From the NCBI GenBank assembly GCA_017439185.1, contig JAFRTM010000023.1, positions 49,106-113,105 on the forward strand: a stretch of DNA of 64,000 nt, given 5' to 3'. Origin of the DNA: Bacteroidales bacterium (lineage in GTDB: Bacteria; Bacteroidota; Bacteroidia; Bacteroidales; P3). The notes beneath the pieces are model-generated. The model saw nothing but the letters and a program-made list of their open reading frames with translations. It searched no databases and was not told the DNA's origin. Positions 7,588-51,781 of the stretch are shown one piece after another. Positions within the stretch are counted from its first letter, which is position 1. Every line of letters begins with the position of its first letter. The position numbers were made by a program, and so were the translations under genes.

Positions 7588-7665
7588 CCAACGTTTCCGA
7601 AAAGCGAGAACAGAAGAACTTGTTCTTATGTCGAGCCGAGGAAACGTCTTTTGCGCAGCAAAAAA
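7588..7665 (-). repeat. Dispersed structured repeat, copy 1 (family R1)
   Basis: This ~78-bp segment is homologous, in inverted orientation, to 42093-42172. Read on the minus strand it has a small hairpin (TTTTGC/GCAAAA) followed by an outer stem GACGTTTCC ... GGAAACGT enclosing about 45 nt. In the other copy the same stem reads GACGTTATC ... GATAACGT, so the differing bases keep the pairing. Shorter, more decayed copies are at 12793-12836 and 27242-27273. All are intergenic. See the findings. Confidence 0.6.
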
Positions 7666-7756
7666 CATATCAACATTAAACCTATCCACATTAAACCTAT
7701 CCACCTATCAACATTAAACTTATCCACATATCAACATTAAACCTATCCACTTTCAA
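7666..7756 (-). repeat. Tandem TTTAATGTTGATA / GTGGATAGG repeats
   Basis: Five or so degenerate tandem units (on the plus strand CATATCAACATTAAAC and CTATCCACATTAAAC) fill the space between the convergent efflux operon and mutS2. Related units occur at 34324-34370 and inside the methylase gene at 19700-19756. It looks like a slippage-prone simple satellite. No function is evident. Confidence 0.55.
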
Positions 7757-7758
7757 CT

Positions 7759-10197
7759 TCACTTGAGCTTAACCAACGTTATGCCGTCGCCGCCCAGCTC
7801 TATATGTTCCGAGCCGAACCATTCCACATTCCTGTCGGCTTTGAGATAGTCGCGAATCATAGTTTTCAGTATACCGAAGCCTTTGCCGTGCAAGATTTTC
7901 AGGTCCCGCTCGCCCAGCAGCTGAGCCTCGTCGAGGAAACGGGTCAGTTCCGCCAACGCCTCCTCCCCTCTCATTCCACGCACATCGAGAGTCGGGTTGA
8001 AGTATTTGCGTTTCTCGTTGATTTCGTCGTATATCGACTGGAACCGGCTGTTCTTGCGGCTCGTCCGGTCCGCCGGTATCGTCTTCTTCTTGCTCTTCGT
8101 CAGGCGGTTTATGGCTATAGTCATCCTCACCGAGTTGCTCTCCACCACCGCTTTCTTGCCCTGCAGGGCCACCACCTGTCCGTATGTCTGTTCCCCGTCC
8201 ACCATCACTATGTCGCCCACCTCTATCGGTCCTTCGGCCACCTCCTCCTTCGGTTCCTCCGCCGGTGCCGGCGTGGCCGACCGCTTCCGCCGTTCCTTGT
8301 GGGCAGCCGTCTCCCTCTGCTGTTCTTCCGCCAACGATTCACCCTTCTGCCGTAGACGTTCGCGAGCCTGCTGAGTACGTTCCTTCTCAGCCTGAGCCGA
8401 TTTTATGTCGCTTATAGTCTGTTCGACAGCCCTATTGGCATCGGCTACAATCTCTTTTGCCTCGGTGCGGGCCTTGCTCAGAATCTCGTATTTTCGCGAT
8501 TCCAGGTTGTCGCTAAGCCTACGGTATTTCTCCACCACCTCGTTGAGCAGCCGGTCCATCTGTTCCAGTTCCGCCTCTTTCTCGGCAAGAGTCCGTTTTT
8601 CCACCTCCAGCTGCTGCACCTGCTGTTCGAAGTTCAGCATCTCACGTCCCGCACGTTCGGCAGCATTGTCGAGGATTTCCTGCGGGAGACCGATATTTGT
8701 GGCTATCTCGAAAGCGAACGAGCTGCCTGCGTGGCCTATGGCAAGACGGTAAAGCGGTCTCAGGTTCTCGCTGTCGAAGAGCATAGCCCCGTTGACAATC
8801 CCCTCGTGGCGGTCGGCCATCAGCTTGAGGTCGGCAAAATGGGTAGTCACCACCCCGTAAGCACCTCTCTCGTACAGCTCCTCGAGCACAGCCTCGGCTA
8901 TGGCGCATCCCGAACGGGGCTCGGTGCCGCCACCCAGCTCGTCGAGCAGGAACAGAGTCTTGTCGTCAGCGTCGGCCAACAGCTCTTTCATATTCTGCAG
9001 GTGCGACGAATAGGTGCTCAAGTCGCTCTCTATCGACTGCTGGTCTCCGATGTCGATAAACTCCTTGTCGAAGATGCCGAACTCCGACGTCTCGCGGCAG
9101 GGGACGAGCAGTCCGCACTGCATCATATATTGTATCAGACCTATAGCTTTCAAGCACACCGACTTGCCTCCTGCGTTAGGTCCCGAGATGATAAGAATGC
9201 GGTGTTCCCGGTCCATCGTCAAGTCGAACGGCACCACCTCCTTGCCTTCCCTTTGGTGGAACAGCAGCGGATGACGGGCTTCCAGCCATCCGAACATCTG
9301 GCGGTCGTTGACCACCGGCATTCCGGCCTTCAGCTCTATCGCCAGCTTAGCTTTAGCCCTGACAAAGTCAATACGGGCAAGCACCCAGTAAGCGTTTACG
9401 AATATGTCTATCGCCGGACGTATCGAGTCGCTTATTCTCAGCAGTATCTTCTGTATCTCATGTTTCTCGGCGAATTCCAGTTCCCTCAAGTCGTTGTTGA
9501 GTTCCACCACCTCGGCAGGTTCGAGGTAAGCCGTCTGGCGTGTCGCCGACTCGTCGTGTATGAGTCCTTTCATCTTGCGGCGGTGGGTGTCGAGCATCGG
9601 AATCACCATGCGGCCGTTGCGTATGGTCACCTCGCCGTTCTCCGGAGCCCATCCCTCACGCTTGGCTTTCGCCAGCGATCGGCTTATCTGGCTGTCCACC
9701 TCGCCCCTCTTGCGGAAGAGTTCACGCCGTATGTCACGCAAAGTCTCAGTTGCATCGTCGTATATCTCCCCCTTGTCGTCGATGGTCTTGTCTATCAGGC
9801 GTATTATCTGCCTGTCTATCTCTATATGGCTTGCCAGTTCCGCCAGCTCGGGATTTTTCGCCGCCCGTTCCTCGTCGGCGAAATAGTGCATACAGGCCTC
9901 TATGGTGTGGAGCGACACTTTCATATCGAACAGTTCCGCCTGTTCCATCCTTGTGTTGCCCACCCTCAGGTGCTGCAGCATCGGCGTCATGTCTATGAAG
10001 TCCTGCGCCGGGAAGCTGTTGTCCATAAGCATTATCTGGCGCATCTCCTCCACCTGCCTGAGGCTGCGGACGATTCGGTCGTATCGCGTCTCGAAAACCA
10101 TATCCCTGGCCATCTGTGCCGCCAGCTCGTTGGTACAGAATTCCAGGACCATCTCCCTTATCTTGTCGAAACCTATCTTTGCTTCTATGTTGTTCAC
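7759..10197 (-). CDS. mutS2: MutS2 family ATPase/endonuclease
   Basis: MutS2 proteins act on branched DNA and suppress homologous recombination in some bacteria; Bacillus MutS2 is also a ribosome-collision factor (RqcU). Which role applies here is unknown. The 812-residue protein has the usual order: MutS core helices, Walker A (ISGPNAGGKSV near residue 337), ABC-type signature and Walker B (LFLLDELGGGTEP), a long coiled coil (~515-660), a KOW-like segment (IEVGDIVMVDGEQTYGQVVAL), and a C-terminal Smr nuclease domain (LDVRGMRGEEAL near 733 and HGKGFG). The mismatch-recognition N domain of MutS is absent, as expected. It is the last gene of ribF - LRR - amidase - mutS2, starting 15 bp after the amidase stop. 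Confidence 0.95.
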   Translation of the reverse strand: MNNIEAKIGFDKIREMVLEFCTNELAAQMARDMVFETRYDRIVRSLRQVEEMRQIMLMDNSFPAQDFIDMTPMLQHLRVGNTRMEQAELFDMKVSLHTIEACMHYFADEERAAKNPELAELASHIEIDRQIIRLIDKTIDDKGEIYDDATETLRDIRRELFRKRGEVDSQISRSLAKAKREGWAPENGEVTIRNGRMVIPMLDTHRRKMKGLIHDESATRQTAYLEPAEVVELNNDLRELEFAEKHEIQKILLRISDSIRPAIDIFVNAYWVLARIDFVRAKAKLAIELKAGMPVVNDRQMFGWLEARHPLLFHQREGKEVVPFDLTMDREHRILIISGPNAGGKSVCLKAIGLIQYMMQCGLLVPCRETSEFGIFDKEFIDIGDQQSIESDLSTYSSHLQNMKELLADADDKTLFLLDELGGGTEPRSGCAIAEAVLEELYERGAYGVVTTHFADLKLMADRHEGIVNGAMLFDSENLRPLYRLAIGHAGSSFAFEIATNIGLPQEILDNAAERAGREMLNFEQQVQQLEVEKRTLAEKEAELEQMDRLLNEVVEKYRRLSDNLESRKYEILSKARTEAKEIVADANRAVEQTISDIKSAQAEKERTQQARERLRQKGESLAEEQQRETAAHKERRKRSATPAPAEEPKEEVAEGPIEVGDIVMVDGEQTYGQVVALQGKKAVVESNSVRMTIAINRLTKSKKKTIPADRTSRKNSRFQSIYDEINEKRKYFNPTLDVRGMRGEEALAELTRFLDEAQLLGERDLKILHGKGFGILKTMIRDYLKADRNVEWFGSEHIELGGDGITLVKLK

Positions 10198-14634: not shown

Positions 14635-14661
14635 ACAAAAATGATATTATATTTCATTTTG

Positions 14662-14692
14662 CAAATATACACTTTTATGAGGGAATAATCAA
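14662..14692 (-). promoter_or_regulatory. Predicted promoter of left DUF4143 ATPase
   Basis: On the minus strand, TATATTTG (14669-14662) matches the Bacteroidota -7 box TAnnTTTG, and TTG (14692-14690) sits 20 bp upstream. The -7 box is continuous with the first of the 32-bp-spaced repeats (GTGTATATTTGC on the minus strand). The identical 12-mer occurs at the promoter of the right DUF4143 gene. Confidence 0.6.
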
Positions 14693-14786
14693 AAAAAACT
14701 ACATTTTTATGAGGGAATAATTAAAAAAATCTACATTTTTATGAGGGAATAATTTGAAAAAACTACATTTTTATGAGGGAATGATT
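14668..14786 (-). repeat. Four phased 32-bp iterons upstream of DUF4143 gene
   Basis: Copies begin at 14668, 14700, 14732 and 14764, exactly 32 bp apart. Each contains the plus-strand core ACATTTTTATGAGGGAAT (the first has ACTTTTATGAGGGAAT). On the gene's strand the conserved core is CCCTCATAAAAATGT. The spacing, about three helical turns, puts all copies on one face of DNA, as for operator arrays or iterons. There are no unique spacers, so it is not CRISPR. Compare 25313-25390. Confidence 0.8.
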
Positions 14787-15136: not shown

Positions 15137-15183
15137 CTTTTTTGTACTCTTTGAAAGGCGAAGCGCCAATAACGCCAAGCCTT

Positions 15184-18100
15184 ATGAGCACCAAGTTTTT
15201 CAACAATATCGAGTCGACGCTGATGGACAAGTTCCACGGTATCGCCTCTGCAATGGCCAACTTCGACATATTCCATGCTGTAGTTGGCTATTTTCGTTCT
15301 TCCGGATACTTCAAACTGCGACAGGAATTGGATGCCACACAAGAAATCAAGATTCTTGTCGGCATCAATATCGACAATCTTTTTCGTCAGTCACAAGCCG
15401 CTGGCAAGCTCTTCTTCGGTGACAAGGAGGTAAGTCTGGAACAATACTGCGAGGATTTCCTTCGCGATGTCTATCAATCGGAATACTCTTCTGAAGTGGA
15501 TGAGGGCATCCGTCAGTTCTGTGAAGATGTTTTGAGTGGACGCCTGCAACTGCGCATTCATCAAACCAAGGACCTTCACGCCAAATTCTACCTCTGCTTG
15601 CCGAAAAACCACAGCGAACACAGCGACGGCTGGGTCATTATGGGTAGCAGCAACCTCAGCGCCCAAGGCCTCGGCACTACCGAGCCGCCCCGCTATGAGC
15701 TCAATGTGGCCATGAAAGACTATGACGATGTGCATTACTGCGAAGAACAGTTCCAGCAACTCTGGAACGATGCTATTCCGGTGACCTTGGACGATGTAAG
15801 CCATATCGTCGGAAAGACCCATCTTGCACCACAAGAGCATCAACCTACACCATACGAGCTATACATGCGTATGCTCATCGACCACTTCGGCAACCAGGTG
15901 GAAGACGACTTCATTCCCCAACTGCCCGACAATTACGACAACCTCACCTACCAGCGCGACGCGGTGGTGCAGGGCTACGACATCATGATGCGGCACGGGG
16001 GCTGTTTCATTGCCGATGTGGTGGGCTTGGGCAAGACCGTGGTGGCCGCCATGATTGCCCAGCGTTTCATCGCTGCCAACGGCGACGACACCCGCATCCT
16101 CGTCATCTTCCCACCTGCAGTTAAAAGCAACTGGGAAGACACTTTTGCAGACTTCCATATCAAGAACAAATACAGCCGTTTCATCACCAACGGCAGTCTT
16201 GATAAGGTCATTGATGGCGACGGCTACGACGAGAAGGAATACTACGACCTTATCATTGTCGATGAGGCTCACAACTTCCGACACGACAGCAACGGCAACT
16301 ATGACCTGCTGCAACGTATCTGCAAGTCGGCCCGCCTCAACAAGGGTAATGTCAAAGGCGGAAAGCGCGTCCTCCTCCTCTCGGCCACACCGCTCAACAA
16401 CACGCCCGAGGATATCAAGAACCAGTTGCTGCTCTTCCAAGACACCGCCCGCTGTACGCTCGACGGCATAAGTAATATCGCCGACACCTTTGCCCCATGG
16501 ATTAAGGAATTCAAGAGCCTTATGTCACAGCGCCGTGTCCTGAGTGCCGACTACCTCACCAGCCATATCGACGATATCAACCATCAGATGCGCCACACTG
16601 TGTTGGAGAAGGTAATGGTGCGTCGCACCCGCAGCAACATCCAGCACGAACCCCGTTATGCCGGCGAGATTCATTTCCCACAACTGCTCGACCCCACCGA
16701 CCGCACCTATCAGATGTCGCCCGAGGTGCTGATGCTCTTCGTAGAGACCTACAAGAAGTTGGTGGACACTCCCACCGCCAACCTGAAAGAAGACAATCCC
16801 GAGATGTTCGACGGCAGCGGCTTGCGCTATGCCCGATATAGAGCCATAGAATATTGCCCGTCTTACAAGATTCCATCTGGCAAAACAGCAAAACACATGG
16901 CCGACTCGCTGGCCGGAATCTACCAAACCCACATGGTCAAGCGTCTAGAGAGCAGCTTCGACGCCTTCCGACGTTCTCTCCATACGCTACTTGACGCCAC
17001 CAACGGCATGATCAAGATGTTCAACGAGGACAAGGTAATCATCGCCCCCGAACTGAATGTAAAGAAACTGCAGGCCGATGGGATGGAGTTGGACGAGATA
17101 ATCGAGCTAGCCATCGGCAAGGGCTTTGAACAGAATGAGATTGTGTTCCGTGCTGCCGACTTTAATCCAGATTTCTTGCCGATGCTGGAATACGATGCCG
17201 AGGTGTTGGACATGCTCTGCAAACGATGGGACAAGGTGAAGACCGACCCCAAGTTGGATCTATTCGTCAACATGCTCCAGGACGAACTCTTCGACAAAAA
17301 CAAAAACCTCGAAGGCAAGCTGGTGGTGTTCAGCGAGAGTGTCGATACCGTCAACTATCTAGAGAAGGAACTGAAAGAACGGCTGCACCGCAGCGACATC
17401 CTTGCCGTCTGCGCCAAGAACCGCAACCGCCTGCGCGAGACCATACAGGCGAACTTCGATGCCAAATACAAGAAGGAATGGCGTAATGACTATAACATCA
17501 TCATCACCTCCGACGTGTTGGCCGAAGGTGTCAACCTGCACCGCGCCAATGTCATCGTCAACTATGACAGTCCTTGGAATGCCACCCGTCTGATGCAACG
17601 CATTGGTCGTGTGAACCGTATCGGCTCCACCGCCGACGCCATCTACAACTATATGTTCTATCCCTCCGACCCGGGCGATGCCATCATCAGCCTCAAGAAG
17701 AACTCGCTCATCAAGTTGCAGAGTTTCCATTCCGCCCTCGGCGAGGACACCCGCATCTACTCGCACGAGGAGATGGTACACGAATTCAAGCTCTTCAATG
17801 CCGACGTACGCGACGAGACCGACCGCAGCCTTGAACTGTTGCGCGAGGTGCGCGCCCTGCATGATGCTAACCCCGCGCTGTACCGCCGCATCAAGCAGCT
17901 GCCGCCCAAGAGCCGTTGCGCAAGAGCCTCGGAGAGGCTCAATCTCAATAACCCCACACAAGCCGAAGGAGCAGTGTGGGGCAACCCAAACCCCACATCC
18001 ATGCGTGCCGAAGGTACGCGACCTCAAACCATATCCTACCTCGCTTCTCCTCTTAAGAAGGCTTTCTATCTTGTCGGCGAATCCATCCGAGAACTATCCT

Positions 18101-18564
18101 TCCTTGAGGCGGCGGACATCTTCTATGCCAAGCCCGATGAGAAGGCCATACCGTTTGGCGACAGCGAGTCTCTCCATTATGAGCAGGTGCAGACAGCCTT
18201 GAAGCAATACACTCTCGACCAGCAGCGCGAGCATCAGGACGACAAGCCCAAGATTGGTAGCAAAGACAACGACGCCAAGAAAGCTGCCGCCTTCCTGCGT
18301 GAGATACGTCCTATGCTTGACGATGAAGGCCGCCATACAGTTGACCGACTGAAGCAGTTGGTGGAACGCGGCACCTACAACCAGTTGGCCGACGCCCTTA
18401 TCCGCATGTCGAAGAAACAAAAGAAAGAGCCTGTTCCCATGATTAAGATTTTGGAACAACTCGAAGAGTTGGACGGCCGTTATGGACAGCCGCAACCCGA
18501 GACGACCACCAAGCAAGTGGCGCTCACTACCGCAGACATCATCCTTTCTGAAACATTCAAATAA
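15184..18564 (+). CDS. PLD-nuclease/SNF2-like helicase, restriction-type defence protein
   Basis: An 1,126-residue protein that probably translocates on and cuts unmodified DNA. The N-terminal ~190 residues form a phospholipase D-like nuclease domain with the half motif LHAKFYL (near 132) and GSSNLS (near 153). A superfamily 2 helicase follows: DVVGLGKT (Walker A, ~277), VDEAHNFRHD (~359), LLLSATPLNN (~398), then the C-lobe with VVFSESVDTVNYLEKEL (~713), ITSDVLAEGVNLHRA and RIGRVNRIG (~805). The start at 15184 follows the structured leader. An earlier Met at 15142 would add 14 odd residues. Residues ~914-945 look like an in-frame inserted repeat. The methylase gene starts 8 bp downstream. The pair recalls the helicase-methylase-ATPase (Hma) layout as I remember it. 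Confidence 0.88.
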   Translation: MSTKFFNNIESTLMDKFHGIASAMANFDIFHAVVGYFRSSGYFKLRQELDATQEIKILVGINIDNLFRQSQAAGKLFFGDKEVSLEQYCEDFLRDVYQSEYSSEVDEGIRQFCEDVLSGRLQLRIHQTKDLHAKFYLCLPKNHSEHSDGWVIMGSSNLSAQGLGTTEPPRYELNVAMKDYDDVHYCEEQFQQLWNDAIPVTLDDVSHIVGKTHLAPQEHQPTPYELYMRMLIDHFGNQVEDDFIPQLPDNYDNLTYQRDAVVQGYDIMMRHGGCFIADVVGLGKTVVAAMIAQRFIAANGDDTRILVIFPPAVKSNWEDTFADFHIKNKYSRFITNGSLDKVIDGDGYDEKEYYDLIIVDEAHNFRHDSNGNYDLLQRICKSARLNKGNVKGGKRVLLLSATPLNNTPEDIKNQLLLFQDTARCTLDGISNIADTFAPWIKEFKSLMSQRRVLSADYLTSHIDDINHQMRHTVLEKVMVRRTRSNIQHEPRYAGEIHFPQLLDPTDRTYQMSPEVLMLFVETYKKLVDTPTANLKEDNPEMFDGSGLRYARYRAIEYCPSYKIPSGKTAKHMADSLAGIYQTHMVKRLESSFDAFRRSLHTLLDATNGMIKMFNEDKVIIAPELNVKKLQADGMELDEIIELAIGKGFEQNEIVFRAADFNPDFLPMLEYDAEVLDMLCKRWDKVKTDPKLDLFVNMLQDELFDKNKNLEGKLVVFSESVDTVNYLEKELKERLHRSDILAVCAKNRNRLRETIQANFDAKYKKEWRNDYNIIITSDVLAEGVNLHRANVIVNYDSPWNATRLMQRIGRVNRIGSTADAIYNYMFYPSDPGDAIISLKKNSLIKLQSFHSALGEDTRIYSHEEMVHEFKLFNADVRDETDRSLELLREVRALHDANPALYRRIKQLPPKSRCARASERLNLNNPTQAEGAVWGNPNPTSMRAEGTRPQTISYLASPLKKAFYLVGESIRELSFLEAADIFYAKPDEKAIPFGDSESLHYEQVQTALKQYTLDQQREHQDDKPKIGSKDNDAKKAAAFLREIRPMLDDEGRHTVDRLKQLVERGTYNQLADALIRMSKKQKKEPVPMIKILEQLEELDGRYGQPQPETTTKQVALTTADIILSETFK
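17922..18020 (+). repeat. Hairpin-rich repeat inserted in frame in the helicase gene
   Basis: Three consecutive short hairpins occur: GAGCCTC/GAGGCTC, CCCCACAC/GTGTGGGG and TGCGTGCC/GGTACGC, with GCCGAAGG in the last two loops. The encoded residues (about CARASERLNLNNPTQAEGAVWGNPNPTSMRAEGTR) are low in family character and break the flow between the helicase C-lobe and the next helical part. A related arrangement (TGTGGGGTTTG, then hairpins with CTTCGG/CTCCGG loops) is intergenic at 27147-27228. Confidence 0.55.
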
Positions 18565-18572
18565 GCAATACC

Positions 18573-21485
18573 ATGAACCCCGAGACCCTCCGTAAGATAT
18601 TCAAATCCTCGTTCAACTATACGACCTATAGCAACGAGATTGTCCACCGCCTTTTCGGCTGCAACGATGTGGCTACACGTCCCGAATTGCTTGACACCAA
18701 CGCAGACGGCGACAAGAGCTATTTCATCGGTCAGATGGAAGACACCGATGGACGTCTGTTGGGTTTCTTCTACACCCGTGTAGCCGATGGCGGCGATGTG
18801 CGCTGCAAGCGGGTGGGGCTGCGCAAGCTGATTCAGCCTTACCTGAAATATGATGTCGATGGAGCGATAGCAGCCTTTGACGATGGGAATCATTGGCGAC
18901 TGTCTTACATTTGCGACCTCAAGGAGGGGAGCACTTCGGCCAAGCGTTTCTCCTATATCCTGGGTGATGAGCAGGGGCAATACAAAACCCCGATAGAGCG
19001 ATTGGGGAAGGTGGCGGAGAAGAATGGACGTTTCAAATTGTCCGACCTCAAGGAGGCCTTCTCTGTCGATGCCCTCAGCAAGGAGTTCTTCGATGAATAC
19101 CATCGCCATTACGACATTATCATCAACGAATTGAAGCGGCAAGGGTTTGAAGGTGCCACCATTCATGATTATGTGAAGAAGATGATGGGGCGCATTGTCT
19201 TCTTGCACTTCCTGCAGAAGAAGGGCTGGCTGAATGGCAATCTTGCTTTTTTACGCGACCTTTTCTTCTTCAGTCCGCATCAAGGCGACTTCCTTGAGCA
19301 GGTGCTGGAGCCACTTTTCTTTGGAATCTTCAACACCGAGAAAGGCAATCGTGAGCAACTGTTCAAGGCAAAAAAATGGGATATGGGCTTGTTGGATGAT
19401 TGGAAGGAGTTGCCGTATCTGAATGGCGGACTTTTTGAACGTGATGCTGTCGATGAACAAAATATCACTTTGCCGGCTTCGCTCTTTGAGGACTTGTTCA
19501 CCTTTATGGCCTCCTACAACTTCACTGTTGACGAGAACGACCCCGACGATGCCGAAGTGGGTGTCGACCCCGAGATGCTGGGCAAAATCTTCGAGTCGCT
19601 CCTCGAGGATAACAAAGCCAAAGGCGTCTTCTACACCCCCAAGGAGATTGTGCGCTATATGTGCAAAGAATCGCTTATAGCATACCTTGCAAGCTCTCTT
19701 GATAAGTTGAATGATCCCAGTTCCATATCATCGAATAAACATATCAACCTATCAACAAGTATTCGAAATTTTGTCGAGACTCATGAGTTTCCTGCGGAGT
19801 TGGCTCCTTACTGCGGCGTCCTTGACACTGCCCTCCGCGAGGTGAAAATCTGTGACCCCGCCATTGGTAGCGGTGCTTTCCCTATGGGCCTTTTGAACGA
19901 GTTGTGGCGTTGCCGCGAGGCAATAGAAGAGACCTCATCCCGTGTTGAGTTAAAGAAAGAAATTATCGAGAACAACATCTACGGTGTCGATATAGAGAAA
20001 GGTGCTATTGATATCGCCCGCTTGCGTTTCTGGTTAAGTATCGTAGTGGATGCCGAGGAGCCGGAGCCCCTGCCCAACTTTGACTACAAGTTTATGCAGG
20101 GTAACAGCCTTATCGAAAGTTTCGAGGGCTTTGACCTCAGCCATATCAGCGACCGCTTGAGAGGAGGACAACCCACCTCGCGACAACTAGTGATCGGTCT
20201 CGACAGCCACTTGAGCCGTCAGAACCTACAGCGTTTTCTGCGCGAATATTTCTCTGTTACCGACCATCAGCAGAAAGCCAATATGCGACAGTCCATCAAC
20301 GAAGAGGTAAAGACCCTTATCCGCGAGAGCATCGGTGGTACCCCCACTTCCCTCACAAAGTTAGAGAAGATGGATTGTTCCGCCAACCAAGACATCTTCC
20401 TCTGGCACACATGGTTTAAAGACATCTTCGACAACGGTGGCTTTGATATCGTCATCGGCAATCCGCCGTATGGGGCTAAATACTCTGAAGAATGTAAGAA
20501 ATACTACAAAGCGAATTATATTACAGCCAAAACTATATCTGGTAAACAAAAAGGGTCACTTGACACCTTTACTCTTTTTATTGAACACGGCTATAACATT
20601 TTGAAGAGAAACGGGAATTTAGCATATATCGTACCAATTGCATTGACATCAAGTGAGTCACTTACAGGTGTACATAGAATTCTTTTGGACAAATGTGATA
20701 ATATCCGCATTTCATCTTATGCAGTGAGACCTAAACCTGTTTTTGAAAGAGCAGTTGTTAATACATCAATTCTTCTATTTGTAAAGACAGAGAATAAGTG
20801 CCAACACATATACTCCACAAAGATGCACCGGAGGAATGAGGGAATATTTAATTTGCAATACTTGGTTGACCATCTACAGTATGTTGATGTAAAGGACTAC
20901 ATTCTATATGGGAGAATACCCAAAATAGGAAGTGATATGGAGAAGGACATCCTTTATAAACTTTTTAGGAACAACAAACTCAAAACATACTTGAAATCTA
21001 ATGGTTTTCCAGTTGTTTATCGCTTTGCAGGTGGAAGATATTTCAAAGTTGTGACAAATTATAGCAATGGTTCTTCAGCAGAGAGGAATCTGTATTTTGA
21101 CGACAAAGAATTTGCAAATGCGGTAGGATGTATATTAAGTAGTAATCTATCGTTCTGGTTCTATCAGATTATTTCTGACAATCTTAACTGGAAGAGTTAT
21201 GAGATAGAAAACTTTACAATACCTAATTTGGAACATTCCCACATTGAATACTTGTCTCAACTATATGGTCGTTATTTAAATGATATAGAAAAGAATGCTA
21301 ATATCAGAGAAACCACAGGATCATCTTCTTACAATGTTGATACATTTAAAGAATACAAAATTGTCCGTTCAAAATCCATTATCGACGAGATAGACGACTA
21401 TATAGGCCCTTTGTATGGATTGACGCAAGAGGAAATTGACTTCGTTAAAAACTATGAATTGGAATTTCGTATGGCCGGAGAATAA
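18573..21485 (+). CDS. Eco57I/BREX-like N6-adenine DNA methyltransferase with mosaic C terminus
   Basis: A 970-residue DNA methylase expected to mark self DNA for the upstream helicase-nuclease. Motif X/I region: DPEMLGKIFESLLEDNKAKGVFYTPKEIVRYM (~330), then SAM motif I DPAIGSGAFP (~428), a motif II-like GVDIEKGAIDIARLRFWLSIV (~475), and catalytic motif IV NPPYG (~630), which denotes N6-adenine methylation. The region after NPPYG (~635-935) is the expected target-recognition part. There the DNA turns strongly AT-rich (from ~20,470), whereas 18,573-20,460 is GC-balanced, which suggests a swapped specificity domain. A short repeat-derived stretch lies at 19,700-19,756. The start lies 8 bp after the helicase stop. 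Confidence 0.9.
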   Translation: MNPETLRKIFKSSFNYTTYSNEIVHRLFGCNDVATRPELLDTNADGDKSYFIGQMEDTDGRLLGFFYTRVADGGDVRCKRVGLRKLIQPYLKYDVDGAIAAFDDGNHWRLSYICDLKEGSTSAKRFSYILGDEQGQYKTPIERLGKVAEKNGRFKLSDLKEAFSVDALSKEFFDEYHRHYDIIINELKRQGFEGATIHDYVKKMMGRIVFLHFLQKKGWLNGNLAFLRDLFFFSPHQGDFLEQVLEPLFFGIFNTEKGNREQLFKAKKWDMGLLDDWKELPYLNGGLFERDAVDEQNITLPASLFEDLFTFMASYNFTVDENDPDDAEVGVDPEMLGKIFESLLEDNKAKGVFYTPKEIVRYMCKESLIAYLASSLDKLNDPSSISSNKHINLSTSIRNFVETHEFPAELAPYCGVLDTALREVKICDPAIGSGAFPMGLLNELWRCREAIEETSSRVELKKEIIENNIYGVDIEKGAIDIARLRFWLSIVVDAEEPEPLPNFDYKFMQGNSLIESFEGFDLSHISDRLRGGQPTSRQLVIGLDSHLSRQNLQRFLREYFSVTDHQQKANMRQSINEEVKTLIRESIGGTPTSLTKLEKMDCSANQDIFLWHTWFKDIFDNGGFDIVIGNPPYGAKYSEECKKYYKANYITAKTISGKQKGSLDTFTLFIEHGYNILKRNGNLAYIVPIALTSSESLTGVHRILLDKCDNIRISSYAVRPKPVFERAVVNTSILLFVKTENKCQHIYSTKMHRRNEGIFNLQYLVDHLQYVDVKDYILYGRIPKIGSDMEKDILYKLFRNNKLKTYLKSNGFPVVYRFAGGRYFKVVTNYSNGSSAERNLYFDDKEFANAVGCILSSNLSFWFYQIISDNLNWKSYEIENFTIPNLEHSHIEYLSQLYGRYLNDIEKNANIRETTGSSSYNVDTFKEYKIVRSKSIIDEIDDYIGPLYGLTQEEIDFVKNYELEFRMAGE
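19700..19756. repeat. Repeat-derived segment within methylase gene (R4-like)
   Basis: TTGATAAGTTGAATG at 19700-19714 and the opposite-strand unit CATATCAACCTATCAAC at 19740-19756 both match the intergenic TTGATAGGTTGAATG family (34324-34370, 7666-7756). They encode roughly LDKLNDPSSISSNKHINLST, a linker-like stretch. The frame is kept. Confidence 0.45.
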
Positions 21486-21596
21486 ACACACATGATAACA
21501 CTACAAAATCATATGAAAAAAACACTGTAAAAGAACAGAGTTATTAATTGAATTCTCCAGATTTTCAAGTAAATCATGCCTGTTGATAAGTTTTTC

Positions 21597-21626
21597 TTGT
21601 TAACAATTATTTTTTTTGTATTTTTG
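21597..21626 (+). promoter_or_regulatory. Predicted promoter of PARIS-like gene pair
   Basis: TTG (21597-21599), a 19-bp spacer, and TATTTTTG (21619-21626) fit the TAnnTTTG pattern. The ATPase ATG is at 21648, giving a leader of about 15 nt. It indicates expression separate from the methylase operon. Confidence 0.6.
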
Positions 21627-21647
21627 CAAACAAAACAGATATATTGT

Positions 21648-22931
21648 ATGGCATCAAGCATTATCAAACATGTAGAGATTAAGAAGCTCTGGGGCGTAAA
21701 AACAATTTCAACAGATTTTGACGAACACGTCAATATTTTTATTGGAATAAATGGTTCAAGCAAAACGACTTTTTTGAACTTGATTGAAGCATCTTTATCT
21801 GTTGATTTGAAGATGTTTTTGTCTATAGATTTTGAAAAAATAACCATTAGTTTTCAAAGTGACTCCGTAAAAAAAATTTGTGTAACCAAAAAAGAAAAAG
21901 ACGGAGATTTCTTTGTTGACTATGCATTCGATGACGAAGAGCCAATTGATATCCCTTGTAATGACATAATAATCCAAAGAGCATATAGAATTCCCATTAG
22001 ATATAGGGAATCGTTAAACTTTGTCAGACAAAAGATGCATGAATTAATCAACATTTCTTGGCTTTCTGTAAATCGAGATAATGCCAATGTCGGTGAATTC
22101 GAAAGACACGATTATGAACGCGGAAGTAATATGGTTGATAACAAACTTAAAGAACTTGCACACAACTTAATTCTGTACCAGTTAAAGTTAGAATCTGATT
22201 CTAGCAGAATTGCAGATCACTTTAAGGAAAATGTTTTATCTTTGATGTTATATGATGAAACATCAGACCGTTATAATGGCGAAGAAATATCACAATATAG
22301 CTCATCGGATACACAAGCAATGCAAACAGAATTGTTTAAAGCATTTAATGCTTTAGGAGTAGCTAGGGACAAAAGCTTAGCAATTAAAAATCACGTTAAT
22401 AAGATAAAAGAAGTACTCGATAATATTACAAACCACGAACAAATCACCATAGATGAGGCATTTGTACTCGCTTTAATAAAAAGGACTTTTTCCATCATAG
22501 AAATTTCCAAAAATCATGAATCTCAAAAAAAGGAGATCTTTGCTCCAATAGAAAAATTTAATAAGTGTTTAAAAAGATTCATGCCTGATAAGACTTTTAA
22601 ATTGAATGGCAATAACGAAGGTGGATTGGGAATTGTACTTAAAGAAGATAAAAAGGAGGATATACCTATTGGTCTTTCTTCCCTTTCATCCGGAGAAAAA
22701 CAATTGTTCATTTTAATTACTGAAGCTCTTCTTCAAAAAGGACTTCCTCATTTGTTTATTGCAGATGAACCAGAATTATCTCTTCATATTGGATGGCAAA
22801 GGCTGGTTATTGGTGAGTTGCTGGAAATGAATCCGAATGCTCAGATAATCATTGCAACACATTCACCGGAAATAGCAGGGAAATACCCGAACAATATTAT
22901 AAATATGAAAAATATTACAAGATATGAATGA
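21648..22931 (+). CDS. AAA_15/ABC-type ATPase, PARIS AriA-like
   Basis: A 427-residue SMC/OLD-like ATPase. Walker A is IGINGSSKTTFLN (~30), the ABC signature is LSSGEKQLFIL (~346), Walker B is LFIADEPELSLH (~369) and the H-switch is IIATHSPEIAG near the end; the central ~150-330 part is helical. Its stop overlaps the start of a DUF4435 gene by 8 bp. This AAA_15 plus DUF4435 pairing is the definition of PARIS (AriA plus AriB), in which AriA forms an oligomeric scaffold that senses phage anti-restriction proteins and releases the AriB effector. The start at 21648 fits the promoter; an upstream Met at 21576 would lie before it. AT-rich DNA suggests transfer. An alternative is the ATPase of a helicase-methylase-ATPase system. 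Confidence 0.82.
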   Translation: MASSIIKHVEIKKLWGVKTISTDFDEHVNIFIGINGSSKTTFLNLIEASLSVDLKMFLSIDFEKITISFQSDSVKKICVTKKEKDGDFFVDYAFDDEEPIDIPCNDIIIQRAYRIPIRYRESLNFVRQKMHELINISWLSVNRDNANVGEFERHDYERGSNMVDNKLKELAHNLILYQLKLESDSSRIADHFKENVLSLMLYDETSDRYNGEEISQYSSSDTQAMQTELFKAFNALGVARDKSLAIKNHVNKIKEVLDNITNHEQITIDEAFVLALIKRTFSIIEISKNHESQKKEIFAPIEKFNKCLKRFMPDKTFKLNGNNEGGLGIVLKEDKKEDIPIGLSSLSSGEKQLFILITEALLQKGLPHLFIADEPELSLHIGWQRLVIGELLEMNPNAQIIIATHSPEIAGKYPNNIINMKNITRYE

Positions 22932-23811
22932 TTCGACTAAGAATGAACTACCATATTCTAATGAGGCGTTAAGTGTTATTCATTCATTTTATGGAAAAAA
23001 GTGTATGGTATATGTTGAGGGAGATGATGATGTCAGTTTTTGGGACGCCATTTTTGAGAAAGCAGTTTCGAATGATTTGTATGAAATTGAGCCTCTTGGC
23101 GGTATTAGCGGGGAGTTGAAAAAATATATACAGAAAATATTGAAAGGCGAAGTGAGAAATGTTATAATAGCATGTGATAATGATTATACAGCCTATTTGA
23201 ATACAGCCCCATATAGTAGTCCATATATTATTACGACATATGGCTATTCTATTGAGAATACTATGTTCTGTCCGTCAAATATTGCTGTTTATTTAAAAAG
23301 GTTGTCTAAAAGTACAAACAGCTATATGGATGTGGTTATAAAATGGTATGATGATTTTTGTGAAAAGGCAAAGATGTTGTTGCCATATGACATCGCTAAT
23401 TTTATTAATGTATGGAATGGATCTACCGAACCAATGACAAGTTTTTTGGGTGATAATTGTTGTCGTTTTTTAGAGAATACATCTTCTCCCAAATTGGATC
23501 ATGGTAAAATTACACAGTATATAGATTCGCATAAAGGAGAATATCCTGATAATATGATATCAACTATAACCGAAAAGATAAATAATGACGAGCGTGGCAT
23601 TAGGAATATACTAAAAGGACATTTCCTCACAAATGGTGTAATGAATCTCATTACGAAAGAAACAAGAGCCGTGGGGCACACGACAAAAATTGAAAAAAAT
23701 CAAATGTATGCCACATTTTGTAGTTGTATAGTACCATGTCCACAACTCTGCCAAGAAAGGAAAGAAATAGTTGATAAAATAAAGAAAGCTTTTGAAAAAT
23801 TATCAAAATAA
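22924..23811 (+). CDS. DUF4435 TOPRIM-like nuclease, PARIS AriB-like effector
   Basis: A 295-residue protein with a TOPRIM-type acidic layout: MVYVEGDDDVSFW (~34-46, the conserved Glu), IIACDNDYTAY (~81-91, the DxD) and YSIENTMF (~110), followed by a helical C-terminal half. These are the DUF4435 features known from PARIS AriB, which in Escherichia coli is a tRNA nuclease that stops growth when released from AriA. The start overlaps the ATPase stop (8 bp), so the two are translationally coupled. The strongly AT-rich sequence is unlike backbone genes. The target RNA in this organism cannot be told from sequence. Confidence in the family is high; activity is inferred. Confidence 0.82.
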   Translation: MNDSTKNELPYSNEALSVIHSFYGKKCMVYVEGDDDVSFWDAIFEKAVSNDLYEIEPLGGISGELKKYIQKILKGEVRNVIIACDNDYTAYLNTAPYSSPYIITTYGYSIENTMFCPSNIAVYLKRLSKSTNSYMDVVIKWYDDFCEKAKMLLPYDIANFINVWNGSTEPMTSFLGDNCCRFLENTSSPKLDHGKITQYIDSHKGEYPDNMISTITEKINNDERGIRNILKGHFLTNGVMNLITKETRAVGHTTKIEKNQMYATFCSCIVPCPQLCQERKEIVDKIKKAFEKLSK

Positions 23812-23903: not shown

Positions 23904-25073
23904 ATGTCAAAGATAAATATATTTATAAGCTCTACCTGCAAAGACTTGCACCAAGACCGTTTGGTCTTAAAGAACGGAATTGAGAATTTAGGACACAATG
24001 TGATTCTTTCGGAATCATTTACATTTCCTATTGATCCGTCTAAGAACACTATAGACAACTGCATTGACATTGTCCGTAATGAGGCTGACATCTTTATTCT
24101 CATAATAAAAGACAACTACGGGACCATTGTTCCGCGAACGGGTCGCTCTGTTACACATATGGAACTCCAAACGGCACAGGATAAGGGCATACCCATCTAC
24201 ACATTCACAAATAGCGAGACGCTACGACAGAAAGTGTTGTTAGAGGGTCAGCTTAATGAAGACTCTGAATTTCTAAAAGTATGCAAGTTTATAGATGAGG
24301 TTAGACAGGAGAGAAGTCTTTGGAATTTCGAATACAGTGGTGTTGATGACATTCTCAATACTATAAAAACGCAGTTGTCTATTTTGATGAAACACTCTTT
24401 GTCGGCGCGAAACAAGGTTGATGCCATTGATAAAAAATGGATTTTTCCTCATATCTCACCAGAGGCATATCGCTTGCTTGTCTATAAGGAGAAAAACTAT
24501 GTGGAACGGTTCTTCTTCCAAGTGATGAAAGATGAGATGGAACGCCATGTGGACTTGAAACTTGACTACAAATATTCTCACCTTCTCAACGCCGGGTATA
24601 CACAGAAAAGCCTACGTGAGTTTGCAAGATGGATTAATGATATTTTTGATGAAATTGCTTTCTATTTAAGATCTGAAATAAAGTTGGAGACAGCATTCTT
24701 CGATTCCTATAAAGAGGATGACTCAGATTTCCGTCAACTGTACCATGTGGCAAAACGATTTGCAAATAGATTTGCAGATATGCTGGAGCTGGGGATACAT
24801 CTGAAATCGGAATATGTATATCCTGAATATGCTTCTATCCAAAGCAGAATATCGAGAATAGTTGAAAATGCCATTTCTCAACTGGAGAATCTACCACAGT
24901 CTGCTCTGGATGCCATTGAAAAAATTTGTAAAGACGAAATAGCTGCAAATTCTGAGATATCTGCAAATATGGAATTCCCCAGCATCATAGATGTCTCTGA
25001 TAAAGAAATGGAAGAACTTGCCAGTGAGATAAAACAAATTGTGGAACATATTAAGGCAAGAGCAAAAGAATAA
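23904..25073 (+). CDS. DUF4062 domain protein
   Basis: A 389-residue protein. Residues 1-~115 are a DUF4062 domain: INIFISSTCKDLHQDRLVLKNGIENLGH, then a Ser/Pro-rich segment, IVRNEADIFILIIKDNYGTIVP and SVTHMELQTAQDKGIPIYTF. The domain has a flavodoxin/TIR-like Rossmannoid look and often heads signalling or defence proteins. The remainder is helical with no recognisable effector. It starts 92 bp after the PARIS-like pair on the same strand and shares its AT-rich composition. It could be a separate anti-phage or stress protein or an accessory to its neighbours. No clear promoter or terminator was seen in between, so read-through from the PARIS promoter is possible. Confidence 0.75.
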   Translation: MSKINIFISSTCKDLHQDRLVLKNGIENLGHNVILSESFTFPIDPSKNTIDNCIDIVRNEADIFILIIKDNYGTIVPRTGRSVTHMELQTAQDKGIPIYTFTNSETLRQKVLLEGQLNEDSEFLKVCKFIDEVRQERSLWNFEYSGVDDILNTIKTQLSILMKHSLSARNKVDAIDKKWIFPHISPEAYRLLVYKEKNYVERFFFQVMKDEMERHVDLKLDYKYSHLLNAGYTQKSLREFARWINDIFDEIAFYLRSEIKLETAFFDSYKEDDSDFRQLYHVAKRFANRFADMLELGIHLKSEYVYPEYASIQSRISRIVENAISQLENLPQSALDAIEKICKDEIAANSEISANMEFPSIIDVSDKEMEELASEIKQIVEHIKARAKE

Positions 25074-25312
25074 TGTGAGTTGATTTCATAGAATCCACAA
25101 AGAAGGATTGTATAACCCACAAAGAAGGGAATGATGGAATCTGAAATGCGTTTGCTCCTCAAGGTAGCAGGCCGTGTCTCCTGCGGTTCCAGGCAGAATA
25201 TGTGATTTTTCGGATTGATTATGTCTTTTTTTACTTATAATATGTATGTCTTCAGGATGATAATTCGTTATAAGAACGACTTGATTATCAGGAAATTGTT
25301 TGCTGTACATAT

Positions 25313-25390
25313 AAAAATGTGTAATTTTACAGTGTTCAATATTGGAAAAATGTGTATATTTGCATCGGAAAATAATATAAAAATGTGTAA
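25313..25390 (+). repeat. Three phased 33-bp iterons at right DUF4143 promoter
   Basis: AAAAATGTGTA copies start at 25313, 25346 and 25379, exactly 33 bp apart. Two are preceded by AT to give ATAAAAATGT, the same core found on the coding strand of the left DUF4143 gene's repeats. The middle copy runs straight into the -7 box (GTGTATATTTGC). The last copy ends 7 bp before the ATG at 25398, where a bound repressor would block initiation. Confidence 0.75.
25355..25362 (+). promoter_or_regulatory. Predicted -7 box of right DUF4143 gene
   Basis: TATATTTG matches TAnnTTTG. No good TTG is seen 19-20 bp upstream. The box is embedded in the phased repeat array, so activity is probably controlled by whatever binds the repeats. 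Confidence 0.55.
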
Positions 25391-25397
25391 ATAGAGC

Positions 25398-26747
25398 ATG
25401 AAAAGGAAGATATACAAGCAATTGCTAAACTGGAGGAGCAGCAAGGAGAAAAAGCCCCTAATTATTGGTGGTGCAAGACAGGTAGGGAAGACCTATTCTG
25501 TCCGTGAATTTGGACAGTCGTATAGCTCGTTTATAGAGATTAACTTCATTACACAGCCTTTCTATAAGCAGATATTCTCAGAAGGGTACAATGTGGATGA
25601 TGTCGTCAAGCAGATCTCGTTTCTCAACCCCAATGCCAAGTTTATCGAAGGGGACACGCTGATTTTCTTTGATGAGCTACAGGAGTATCCCGACTGCTCT
25701 ACATCGCTCAAATTCTTCAAAGAGGATGGGCGATATGATGTTATATGCTCTGGCTCGATGATGGGACTGAACTACAAGGACATCACTTCAAACAGCGTAG
25801 GGTACAAGACTGATGTTATGATGTATTCGATGGACTTCGAGGAGTTTCTGTGGGCGAAAGGGTATGACGAGAGCTTTGTTGAGATGCTGCTGTCGCACCT
25901 GATTGACCTTCGGCCTTTCAACGACCTGGAGATGCGACGGCTGGATTCGCTGTTTCTTGACTACGTTGTCACGGGCGGGATGCCGGATGTGGTTGCCACT
26001 TTTATCAATGAGGGGAATTTCTCGAACGTGATGCCGCTGCAACGTCAGCTGTTGGCCGACTACGAGGAAGACATTATCAAATACGCCCAAGGTCTCGATA
26101 AGGCCAAAATAAGAAGTGTCTACAGGAACATTCCCGTGTTTCTGGCCAAAGAAAACAAGAAATTCCAGATAACCAAGGTGGCCAAAAACGCCCGCAGCCG
26201 CGAGTATGCAGGATGTGTGGAATGGTTGAGGGATGCCGGCATTGTCAATGTGTGCCACTGCCTGAATTTTCCAGAGTTGCCTTTGAAAGGCAACTATGAC
26301 GAAAGCAAATACAAACTCTACTACCACGACAACGGGTTGCTGATGGCTGCATTGGACGAGGAATCGAGCATGGACCTTCGGCAGAACCGCAATCTCGGTG
26401 TGTACAAAGGTGCCGTGTATGAGAACATCGTATCGGAGGCGCTGACAAAACAGGGCTACAAGCTTTATTACTACAAAACGGAGAATGCCCAGCTGGAGAT
26501 GGATTTCTTTGTCCGCGACAGCACGACGCTTATTCCTGTGGAAGTGAAAACCACTACGGGTGCCACTCCGTCATTGAACAAACTAATCGACAGAGACAGC
26601 TATCCTGATGTGAAATGGGGAATCAAACTGAGCCACCAAAACATTGGCTTCAACGGCAAATTCTACACGTTTCCGTACTATTGCTCTTTCTTGTTGAAAC
26701 GATGGATGGAAAGCTTGAACAAGCAGTCAGAAGCAGTTAAAAAGTAG
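25398..26747 (+). CDS. DUF4143-family AAA ATPase (right copy)
   Basis: A 449-residue paralogue of 13327-14634. Walker A is PLIIGGARQVGKTYSV (~21-36) and Walker B is DTLIFFDELQEYPDC (~90). The C terminus has the nuclease-like pattern AQLEMDFFVRDSTTLIPVEVKTTTGATPSLNKL, with Asp and Glu-x-Lys spaced as in PD-(D/E)XK folds. The family is common in Bacteroidota, often in many copies, and its cellular task is unproven. Composition is nearer the backbone than the PARIS/DUF4062 genes. It faces outward at the right edge of the island, mirroring the left copy. Expression is probably controlled through the 33-bp repeats covering its promoter. Confidence 0.9.
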   Translation: MKRKIYKQLLNWRSSKEKKPLIIGGARQVGKTYSVREFGQSYSSFIEINFITQPFYKQIFSEGYNVDDVVKQISFLNPNAKFIEGDTLIFFDELQEYPDCSTSLKFFKEDGRYDVICSGSMMGLNYKDITSNSVGYKTDVMMYSMDFEEFLWAKGYDESFVEMLLSHLIDLRPFNDLEMRRLDSLFLDYVVTGGMPDVVATFINEGNFSNVMPLQRQLLADYEEDIIKYAQGLDKAKIRSVYRNIPVFLAKENKKFQITKVAKNARSREYAGCVEWLRDAGIVNVCHCLNFPELPLKGNYDESKYKLYYHDNGLLMAALDEESSMDLRQNRNLGVYKGAVYENIVSEALTKQGYKLYYYKTENAQLEMDFFVRDSTTLIPVEVKTTTGATPSLNKLIDRDSYPDVKWGIKLSHQNIGFNGKFYTFPYYCSFLLKRWMESLNKQSEAVKK

Positions 26748-51179: not shown

Positions 51180-51781
51180 ATCTTCTAACTTTTCACTACT
51201 AATAACGCAGAAATTATAAAAATGTTACGCAGAGTTGAAAATTTAACATTTTAAGGGGTCGGTAGAATGAGCGGGCTTTGTTTCCTTCTATATACGTATA
51301 CTCTTTTTTCGAACTTTTTTTGGGGTTATTGGAATGTTTTTTTCAACAGTGGCTATTGTGACGATTGCGACAGTTGTGACAGTTGTATTTTAGATGGTCA
51401 CAGATAGGAGGCACATAGGAGGCCTATTCGACCAAGGTCCGTATTTCGGCAGGGGATAATATATATCTTTAAAAGATATATACCCCCCCGAAAGGAGAGA
51501 GGGTTGAGATATGAGTTTTGAGTTTTAAGTTTTAAGTTATGAGTTAATATTTTTTTTGCGTAAAGTGCAAAAAAAGTCATGAAAAAGGGTATGCATATAT
51601 TGAGGGGGCAATGTTTCCGAGCAGGAAAGCATAGAGTTCTTTGACATATTGTATATAGGAATAGCGGGAAGGGAGCGGGAGGCGGAGGGCCGCCTCCAAG
51701 GAGTGGGATCAGGGCAAAAGAGAAGAGGCGGACCTTGCGGCACCGCCTCTCTTCTCTAAAAAACTATGGATTTTGACGGTC
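51180..51781. other. 602-bp intergenic region with repeats and hairpins
   Basis: It holds an AGGAGGCACATAGGA unit (51408-51422), a TATATATCTTT/AAAGATATATA palindrome (51460-51482), GAGTTTTAAGTT simple repeats (51510-51542), a GAGTTCTTTGACATATTG stretch (~51635-51651) like that seen in Bacteroidota rRNA leaders though no rRNA follows, a GGAGGCGG/CCGCCTCC hairpin (51678-51697), and the rocD terminator. No gene seen. Confidence 0.55.
51719..51757 (-). terminator. Terminator of ornithine aminotransferase gene
   Basis: Stem AGAGAAGAGGCGG paired with CCGCCTCTCTTCTCT (two-base bulge), followed on the minus strand by TTTTG. It lies 25 bp past the stop codon. Confidence 0.65.

Follow-up and report, generated by a model that had tools for sequence, protein, structure and literature searches.

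In the accessible text of PMC12988326, PDC-S01, a single-gene phage-defence candidate in PADLOC, ranks fourth in frequency among defences across all prokaryotes and is described as an ATPase fused to a PD-(D/E)XK member; most PDCs in the core set are said to await experimental validation. For another defence locus, the accessible part of PMC12255303 describes RptR, which represses the promoter of a phage-defence island via three direct repeats, two of them overlapping the 5' -10 box. Plasmid iterons are, as far as the available text of PMC4980987 goes, repeats of 17-22 bp that are bound cooperatively by winged-helix Rep proteins, binding being abolished by a half-turn change in spacing; an iteron autorepressor case appears there as a title in the reference list.

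Most of the DUF4143/PDC-S01 genes examined here showed two to ten direct copies of a 13-18 bp motif upstream, at a phase that was constant within each class, and such phasing appears to be the norm in this ATPase family. Each of the five DUF4143 genes detected in the genome under study matched PDC-S01 models; the phased array is an added property, operators and repeats being unmentioned in the accessible text of PMC12988326 and PMC13356809. The arrays resemble the RptR sites in being direct repeats that often overlap the promoter of a defence or candidate defence gene, but differ in their phase of 22-33 bp and in a motif that is private to each subfamily; RptR is also a separate small homodimeric regulator (PMC12255303, accessible part), whereas the DUF4143 effector gene is itself the sole linked gene. 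Like plasmid iterons they are direct repeats at helical phase, and unlike iterons they belong to proteins in which AAA+ and nuclease domains were found instead of a Rep domain. Archaeal Orc1/Cdc6 is an AAA+ plus winged-helix protein with origin-recognition-box repeats beside its own gene, a likeness that goes no further than this layout, since each DUF4143 subfamily has a motif of its own and the DUF4143 genes, which occur patchily, look accessory. No description of repeats upstream of the DUF4143 family was found in the open-access literature searched, which took in no preprints and few subscription papers. We class the arrays as a putative autoregulatory operator array, a known kind of element, on a family of unknown function.

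The window, by which we mean the whole analysed stretch of 64,000 nucleotides, contains two PDC-S01 genes that sit amid other defence-type genes (Table 1). Both encoded PF13173 and PF13635 domains above the cut-off and matched the PADLOC PDC-S01 models with E values of 1.5e-153 and 2.3e-169. The right protein carries a Walker A motif at about residues 25-32, a Walker B motif at D92-E93 and PD-(D/E)XK-like residues E342/D369/E382/K384; G25, R27, G30, K31, D92, E93 and E382 were invariant among 62 sequences, and E342, D369 and K384 were present in at least 90% of them. Comparison with solved structures yielded P-loop matches to Midasin (E 2.7e-8 and 3.8e-9) and, below the threshold, matches to 2fna (E 0.026) and UPF0102 (E 0.67 and 0.47). 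The conserved Walker and PD-(D/E)XK-like residues, the PDC-S01 match and the defence-type neighbours together make it plausible that the protein is a nuclease effector under its own control. The AriA/AriB-like pair between the two genes, at 21576-23811, is PARIS-like.

Table 1. Features of the window, with positions counted from its first letter
Feature	Position	Strand	Remark
Left AAA_14 + DUF4143 gene, PDC-S01, 435 aa	13327..14634	-	
GTGTATATTTGC, -7 element joined to left-array copy four	14661..14672	-	
Left array, four TTCCCTCATAAAARTGTA copies	14668-14786	-	32-bp tandem repeat
PLD/SNF2-type helicase	15142-18564	+	between the two PDC-S01 genes
Eco57I/type IIG-like methylase	18573-21485	+	between the two PDC-S01 genes
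AriA-like (ATPase)	21576-22931	+	AriA model match
AriB-like (DUF4435)	22924-23811	+	AriB model match
DUF4062 protein	23904-25073	+	no PADLOC match
Shared block, array + gene	25197..26714	+	orthologues ~90-94% identical in DNA, within non-matching flanks
Right array copy 1	25311..25324 (core AAAAATGTGTA 25313-25323)	+	kept among orthologues
Right array copy 2	25346..25356	+	joined to -7 element; 33 bp from copy 1
Predicted -7 element TATATTTGC, Bacteroidota-type	25355..25363	+	promoter-like pattern found genome-wide
Right array copy 3	25379..25389	+	in predicted 5' UTR; 8 bp short of start codon
Right AAA_14 + DUF4143 gene, PDC-S01, 449 aa	25398..26747	+	

The preliminary description of this DNA had placed AAAAATGTGTA upstream of the right gene at 25313, 25346 and 25379, and the spacing is exactly 33 bp. 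It had also claimed a core common to the left and right arrays, which the counts bear out: ATAAAAATGT matched six times in the window, against 0.12 expected from shuffles, with three matches in the left array, two in the right array and one at an unrelated site at 51216; the middle copy of the right array reads GGAAAAATGT at the position of this core. A third claim, of an identical GTGTATATTTGC in both promoters, holds in part. The sequence is present once per array, at 25352 (+) and 14661 (-), but it is largely the general promoter consensus of the genome. With up to two mismatches, AAAAATGTGTANNTTTGC had 66 + 73 matches in the genome, compared to one for the reversed pattern; it is thus a general promoter-like pattern, and promoter background accounts for part of the identity of the copy joined to the -7 element. 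The -7 element TATATTTGC is predicted from the usual Bacteroidota consensus. The phasing and the outer array copies are not explained by an ordinary promoter.

The repeats of the right gene were conserved in an alignment of nine rows (the window gene and its orthologues), representing six distinct sequences. Only 1 of 33 repeat columns varied, compared to 12 of 37 spacer columns (Fisher p = 0.0017); variation was seen in 1 of 7 further promoter columns and, ahead of the array, in 19 of 36. The more distant orthologues, with identities of 74% and 67%, retained three copies at 33 bp amid different flanks. When the 2.15-Mb genome (92% complete) was scanned, the exact pair AAAAATGTGTA-N19..24-AAAAATGTGTA was found solely at the right array, and the left motif, with at most one mismatch, gave four sites, all at its own gene. 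Beyond their own genes, no regulon was seen for either window motif in this genome scan, and a regulon reading was dropped because neither motif recurs elsewhere in the genome.

Phased arrays were found in most of class A, the DUF4143 genes of the same genus, to which the window genes belong and whose upstream regions were collected. An unsupervised 13-mer search was run on 62 non-redundant genes (upstream region of at least 200 bases, protein of at least 400 aa, less than 90% identity); L002, L004 and L005, which did not match the two class A queries, and L024, which had no start, were left out. The search returned 165 gaps, including 38 of 32 bp, 88 of 33 bp and 14 of 34 bp, and at least one gap of 31-35 bp was present in 58 of the 62 genes. 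The repeat score reached p <= 0.05 against shuffles in 55/62; 2 of 9 control promoters with the same core did so as well, but these had no 33-bp phase. Two or more consecutive gaps of 31-35 bp were observed in 72 of the 82 genes from the genus and in 57 of the 79 named orthologues, compared to 4 of 177 control upstream regions, among which L041 is itself a DUF4143 array and two matches are the single L165 region read from both sides. The corresponding figures for at least one such gap were 77/82, 69/79 and 18/177. The lag spectrum (lags 14-49, non-redundant regions) of class A stood at lag 32 in 57 of 125 and at lag 33 in 75 of 125, any other lag reaching at most 4, and 228 controls gave no more than 9 at any lag (9 at lag 33 and 1 at lag 32). 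A phylum-wide set, L106-L135, was weaker, with 3/28 in the strict test and 14/28 for at least one gap of 31-35 bp; several of its loci have two-copy or palindromic units when inspected by eye. The length filters removed L182, a 156-aa fragment, and 2 of the 30 phylum-wide loci (L110 and L130).

Other classes kept other phases. Class B comprises the relatives of the DUF4143 gene on contig C14, with 27 of 31 loci usable. It showed gaps of 23 bp (88) and 24 bp (11) among 112 and up to ten copies per array; an in-phase gap was present in 26/27 loci, and a lag-23 peak in 19 of 23 non-redundant regions. Among the relatives of the gene on contig C13 (class C), 40 of 60 gaps in 17 loci were 22 bp, 15 of the 17 loci had an in-phase gap, and all 14 non-redundant regions peaked at lag 22; the C13 gene of the window genome itself has two in-phase copies only. 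A fourth group, class D, had a phase of 32-33 bp in 9 of 13 loci, with lag 32 in 5/8 and lag 33 in 1/8 non-redundant regions. The phases of 32-33, 23-24 and 22 bp correspond to about two or three helical turns, classes A and B differing by about one turn. Upstream of the DUF4143 genes of the window genome, where the preliminary description had called for a repeat search, all five genes found have repeats, at 32, 33, 24, 23 and 22 bp; the operator logic claimed for the two window paralogues is thus common to both and to most DUF4143 genes examined.

The arrays also extended beyond the Bacteroidota. A gap of 31-35 bp was detected in 19 of 25 orthologues labelled as non-Bacteroidota (Treponema, Fibrobacter, Bacillota and Bifidobacterium), compared to 18/177 controls; many of the 25 are metagenome bins that may be mislabelled, isolates are included, and the L185 gap arises from an A-rich 13-mer. 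Two isolates are examples: four CTCATAAAAGTGT-like copies are spaced at 32 bp in Bifidobacterium oedipodis DSM 109957, and the gaps in Holdemanella porci are 35 and 32 bp. Segatella copri DSM 18205 has three copies of CCCTCATAAAA at 33 bp. Three of six plasmid relatives showed the 32-33 bp phase (Vibrio coralliilyticus, Acinetobacter towneri with one pair, and Collinsella), and a Bacteroides plasmid relative has two copies 66 bp apart and a Ruminococcus albus one two half-motifs at a distance of 32 bp. The units of the Vibrio and Acinetobacter arrays form a near-palindrome around ATGCGC, and their half-site TAAAAATGTAA resembles the window core, so that the ATAAAAATGT core is in part an old property of the presumed operators of this family. 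Near-palindromic units of about 28 bp at the 32-bp phase occur in these two plasmids (L277 and L278), and TTGAGTAAAATTACTCAA-like ones at 22 bp in class C, for example L287; such units suggest a dimer per repeat.

The position of the arrays relative to the predicted promoter was determined for the 118 of 127 array genes of class A (those labelled Bacteroidota or carrying no label, redundant genes included) that had a TAnnTTTG element in the last 170 bases, the other nine being left out. A copy lay over the promoter, taken as about 26 bases before to 22 bases after the element, in 112 of the 118, compared to a mean of 38 and a maximum of 53 under random placement; the six exceptions have arrays wholly upstream. 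Overlap was also the usual arrangement in class C (11/13) and class D (8/9). Class B was different. Counting genes with both an in-phase array and the element (loci within L246-L273), 18 of 22 arrays were wholly upstream of the predicted promoter and 4 of 22 were over it, so simple blocking of RNA polymerase does not cover this class. Repeats acting in an RNA leader were disfavoured because copies precede the predicted transcription start.

The motifs differed between subfamilies (TTCCCTCATAAAAATGTA, TGGAAAAAGTTGTA, ATTTGGTGYAAAA, GGATTATGTGAAA, GCCAACTGCCGTG and others), and motif similarity tracked protein similarity (Mantel r = 0.27-0.29, p = 0.001, n = 76 non-redundant genes), the correlation being weak for pairs below 45% protein identity (r = 0.09, p = 0.031). 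Two left-type genes at about 66% identity, L067 and L093, have the exact core TTCCCTCATAAAA at matching positions, and five more distant left-type genes are without it. With overall identity removed, residues 181-205 best explained motif similarity among pairs of 40-85% identity (family-wise p = 0.023); when all pairs were included, residues 25-49, inside the ATPase, ranked first (family-wise p = 0.037). The winged helix of the family is presumably the start of DUF4143, at about residues 229-289 (also given as ~240-285), and the association of residues 229-289 was significant pointwise only. The preliminary description had proposed private repeat variants that co-vary with the DNA-binding part of the protein: the motifs are private and follow the protein, but covariation with a DNA-binding part is only suggestive.

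Two observations bear on which protein reads the arrays. Among 48 orthologous class A loci for which 1.5 kb or more was available on either side, the flank cluster with the widest distribution was present in 5, and no conserved neighbour, separate regulator or toxin-antitoxin partner gene recurred in more than 5 of the 48. The gene also moves together with its array, as a block from about 25197 to 26714 that recurs with sharp edges where the flanks differ from those of the window. With no other gene consistently linked, the encoded protein is the simplest reader of the array. A two-gene toxin-antitoxin operon was rejected for class A loci because no conserved partner gene is present.

The data suggest that each ATPase is probably self-regulating, through cooperative binding to a phased operator of its own. 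We infer autoregulation from the position, privacy and conservation of the arrays and from the absence of another linked gene; the mostly upstream arrays of class B lower our confidence. The winged-helix part at the start of DUF4143 would read the motif, and the AAA+ part would fix the spacing of the protomers, so that cooperative assembly of subunits could proceed along a single face of the DNA. Where it covers the promoter, such a complex would block RNA polymerase and keep the gene low; in class B, with the array upstream, it would have to act from a distance or otherwise. Loss of the complex, by titration, nucleotide change or phage take-over, would release the gene, and the PD-(D/E)XK-type nuclease would rise. 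As private, phase-locked DNA targets, the arrays predict what a DUF4143 protein binds, with which spacing and with which specificity, and permit such target prediction from sequence alone. They also offer many natural protein-operator pairs for learning recognition rules, and a genomic signature for intact and decayed members of the family.

A possible but doubtful extension is that the array serves as a private address on which the ATPase forms a phase-locked AAA+ filament that holds its own nuclease parked. Stripping or titration, for example when a phage takes over the chromosome, would then free the enzyme and de-repress the gene at once. The upstream arrays of class B fit such a filament at least as well as they fit promoter blocking, and this raised its standing. 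If it were true, a defence candidate that is among the most common would be self-sensing; its classes would differ in lattice constant (22, 23 and 32-33 bp), and their address codes would be insulated from one another.

Less likely again is a mobile ATPase-nuclease cassette for which the arrays serve as recombination or insertion sites, promoter overlap being a secondary matter. The shared block of array and gene recurs among orthologues with a sharp left edge and a right edge inside the right gene, amid flanks that differ from those of the window, which indicates that the gene moves along with its array. Homology with the orthologues ends at 26714, and the stop codon ends 33 bp further on (26747); the right protein and its orthologues therefore differ in their final residues. 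A cassette would also fit the stacked arrays, some of them geneless. At L230 (G089:C131) three kinds, TGGAAAAAGTTGT x2, CGATTTGGTG x2 and TTCCCGAATGAA x3, are stacked upstream of an AAA-type gene, and at L221 and L224 arrays of different subfamilies stand head to tail with no DUF4143 gene after them. At L304 and L309, some 120-240 bp separate arrays of the class C type (AGATTTGAAGATT, 22 bp) from the class D genes downstream of them, and 2 of 27 class B genes (L002 and L267) have 23-bp repeats of the same orientation both upstream and directly downstream. The upstream position of most class B arrays points the same way, as does a weak Pfam likeness to TniB in 7 of 22 members (best E 0.015) and to IstB in 1 of 22 (E 0.0077). 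Against a cassette, no terminal repeats or target duplication were seen by eye at the block edges, and a copy is usually on the promoter in classes A, C and D. In addition, no array of the same motif was found downstream of the gene for any of 58 class A arrays (about 90-240 bp covered for most loci); single weak motif matches near L098 and L101 were the only ones downstream of class A genes.

The two-copy TGGAAAAAGTTGT array was detected in 17 of 120 genus genomes, the reversed pattern being found in none. A cognate gene followed the array in 12 of the 17, although in G043 the match covered just the first half of the gene. In the other five, G023, G008, G072, G055 and G089, the array had no cognate gene and was either stacked with other arrays or placed before unrelated genes. 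These five have the appearance of remnants, which suggests that genes turn over at arrays.

Autoregulation by the encoded protein was also weighed against control by a separate host regulator that binds the arrays, which we regard as quite improbable. Such a regulator would account for the promoter overlap and the conservation of the repeats; it would not be expected from motifs that vary by subfamily while the phase stays constant, that follow the protein and that persist in several phyla, nor from the lack of a conserved neighbour and of further sites for either window motif in the genome. Self-regulation by the ATPase also fits better than a role of the arrays as iteron-like replication or plasmid-maintenance elements, which is very unlikely. 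The phases of 22-23 bp and the winged-helix-type logic do resemble plasmid iterons, whose cooperativity depends on helical spacing (PMC4980987, accessible text). However, no replication-initiator domain was present among the Pfam matches listed for the window genes and 22 members, and the arrays lie at the promoter of the gene itself, often in long contigs of ordinary genes. From the preliminary description, which had proposed an autoregulatory or replication-like iteron system, the autoregulatory half is retained as the probable reading, and there is no indication of replication. Chance or an AT-rich promoter background, the latter named there as what would undo the proposal, is the least credible of all: although the core joined to the -7 element does match the general promoter and two same-core control promoters scored as repetitive without the phase, this reading was ruled out by the shuffles and by the 177 and 228 control upstream regions, arrays that are less AT-rich exist (for example GCCAACTGCCGTG at 24 bp), and arrays persist in phyla with other promoters.

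Viruses were searched in two ways. Three exact array patterns gave no match each in viral contigs, and no confirmed relative of the left protein was found in them; a protein search of a phage collection returned 12 records with relatives of the right protein.

Three minor observations were made along the way. The L018, L021, L022 and L137 copies are flanked on both sides by AATGCGTTAATGTG-like short repeats, which are possible recombination sites. Tandem repeats of 23 and 38 bp (ACCTATCAACATTAAACCTATCC) occupy 7663-7757 of the window and adjoin the ORF at 7759-10197. The promoter-like pattern AAAAATGTGTATCTTTGC had 139 matches with up to two mismatches in its own genome and is usable for promoter annotation in the genus.
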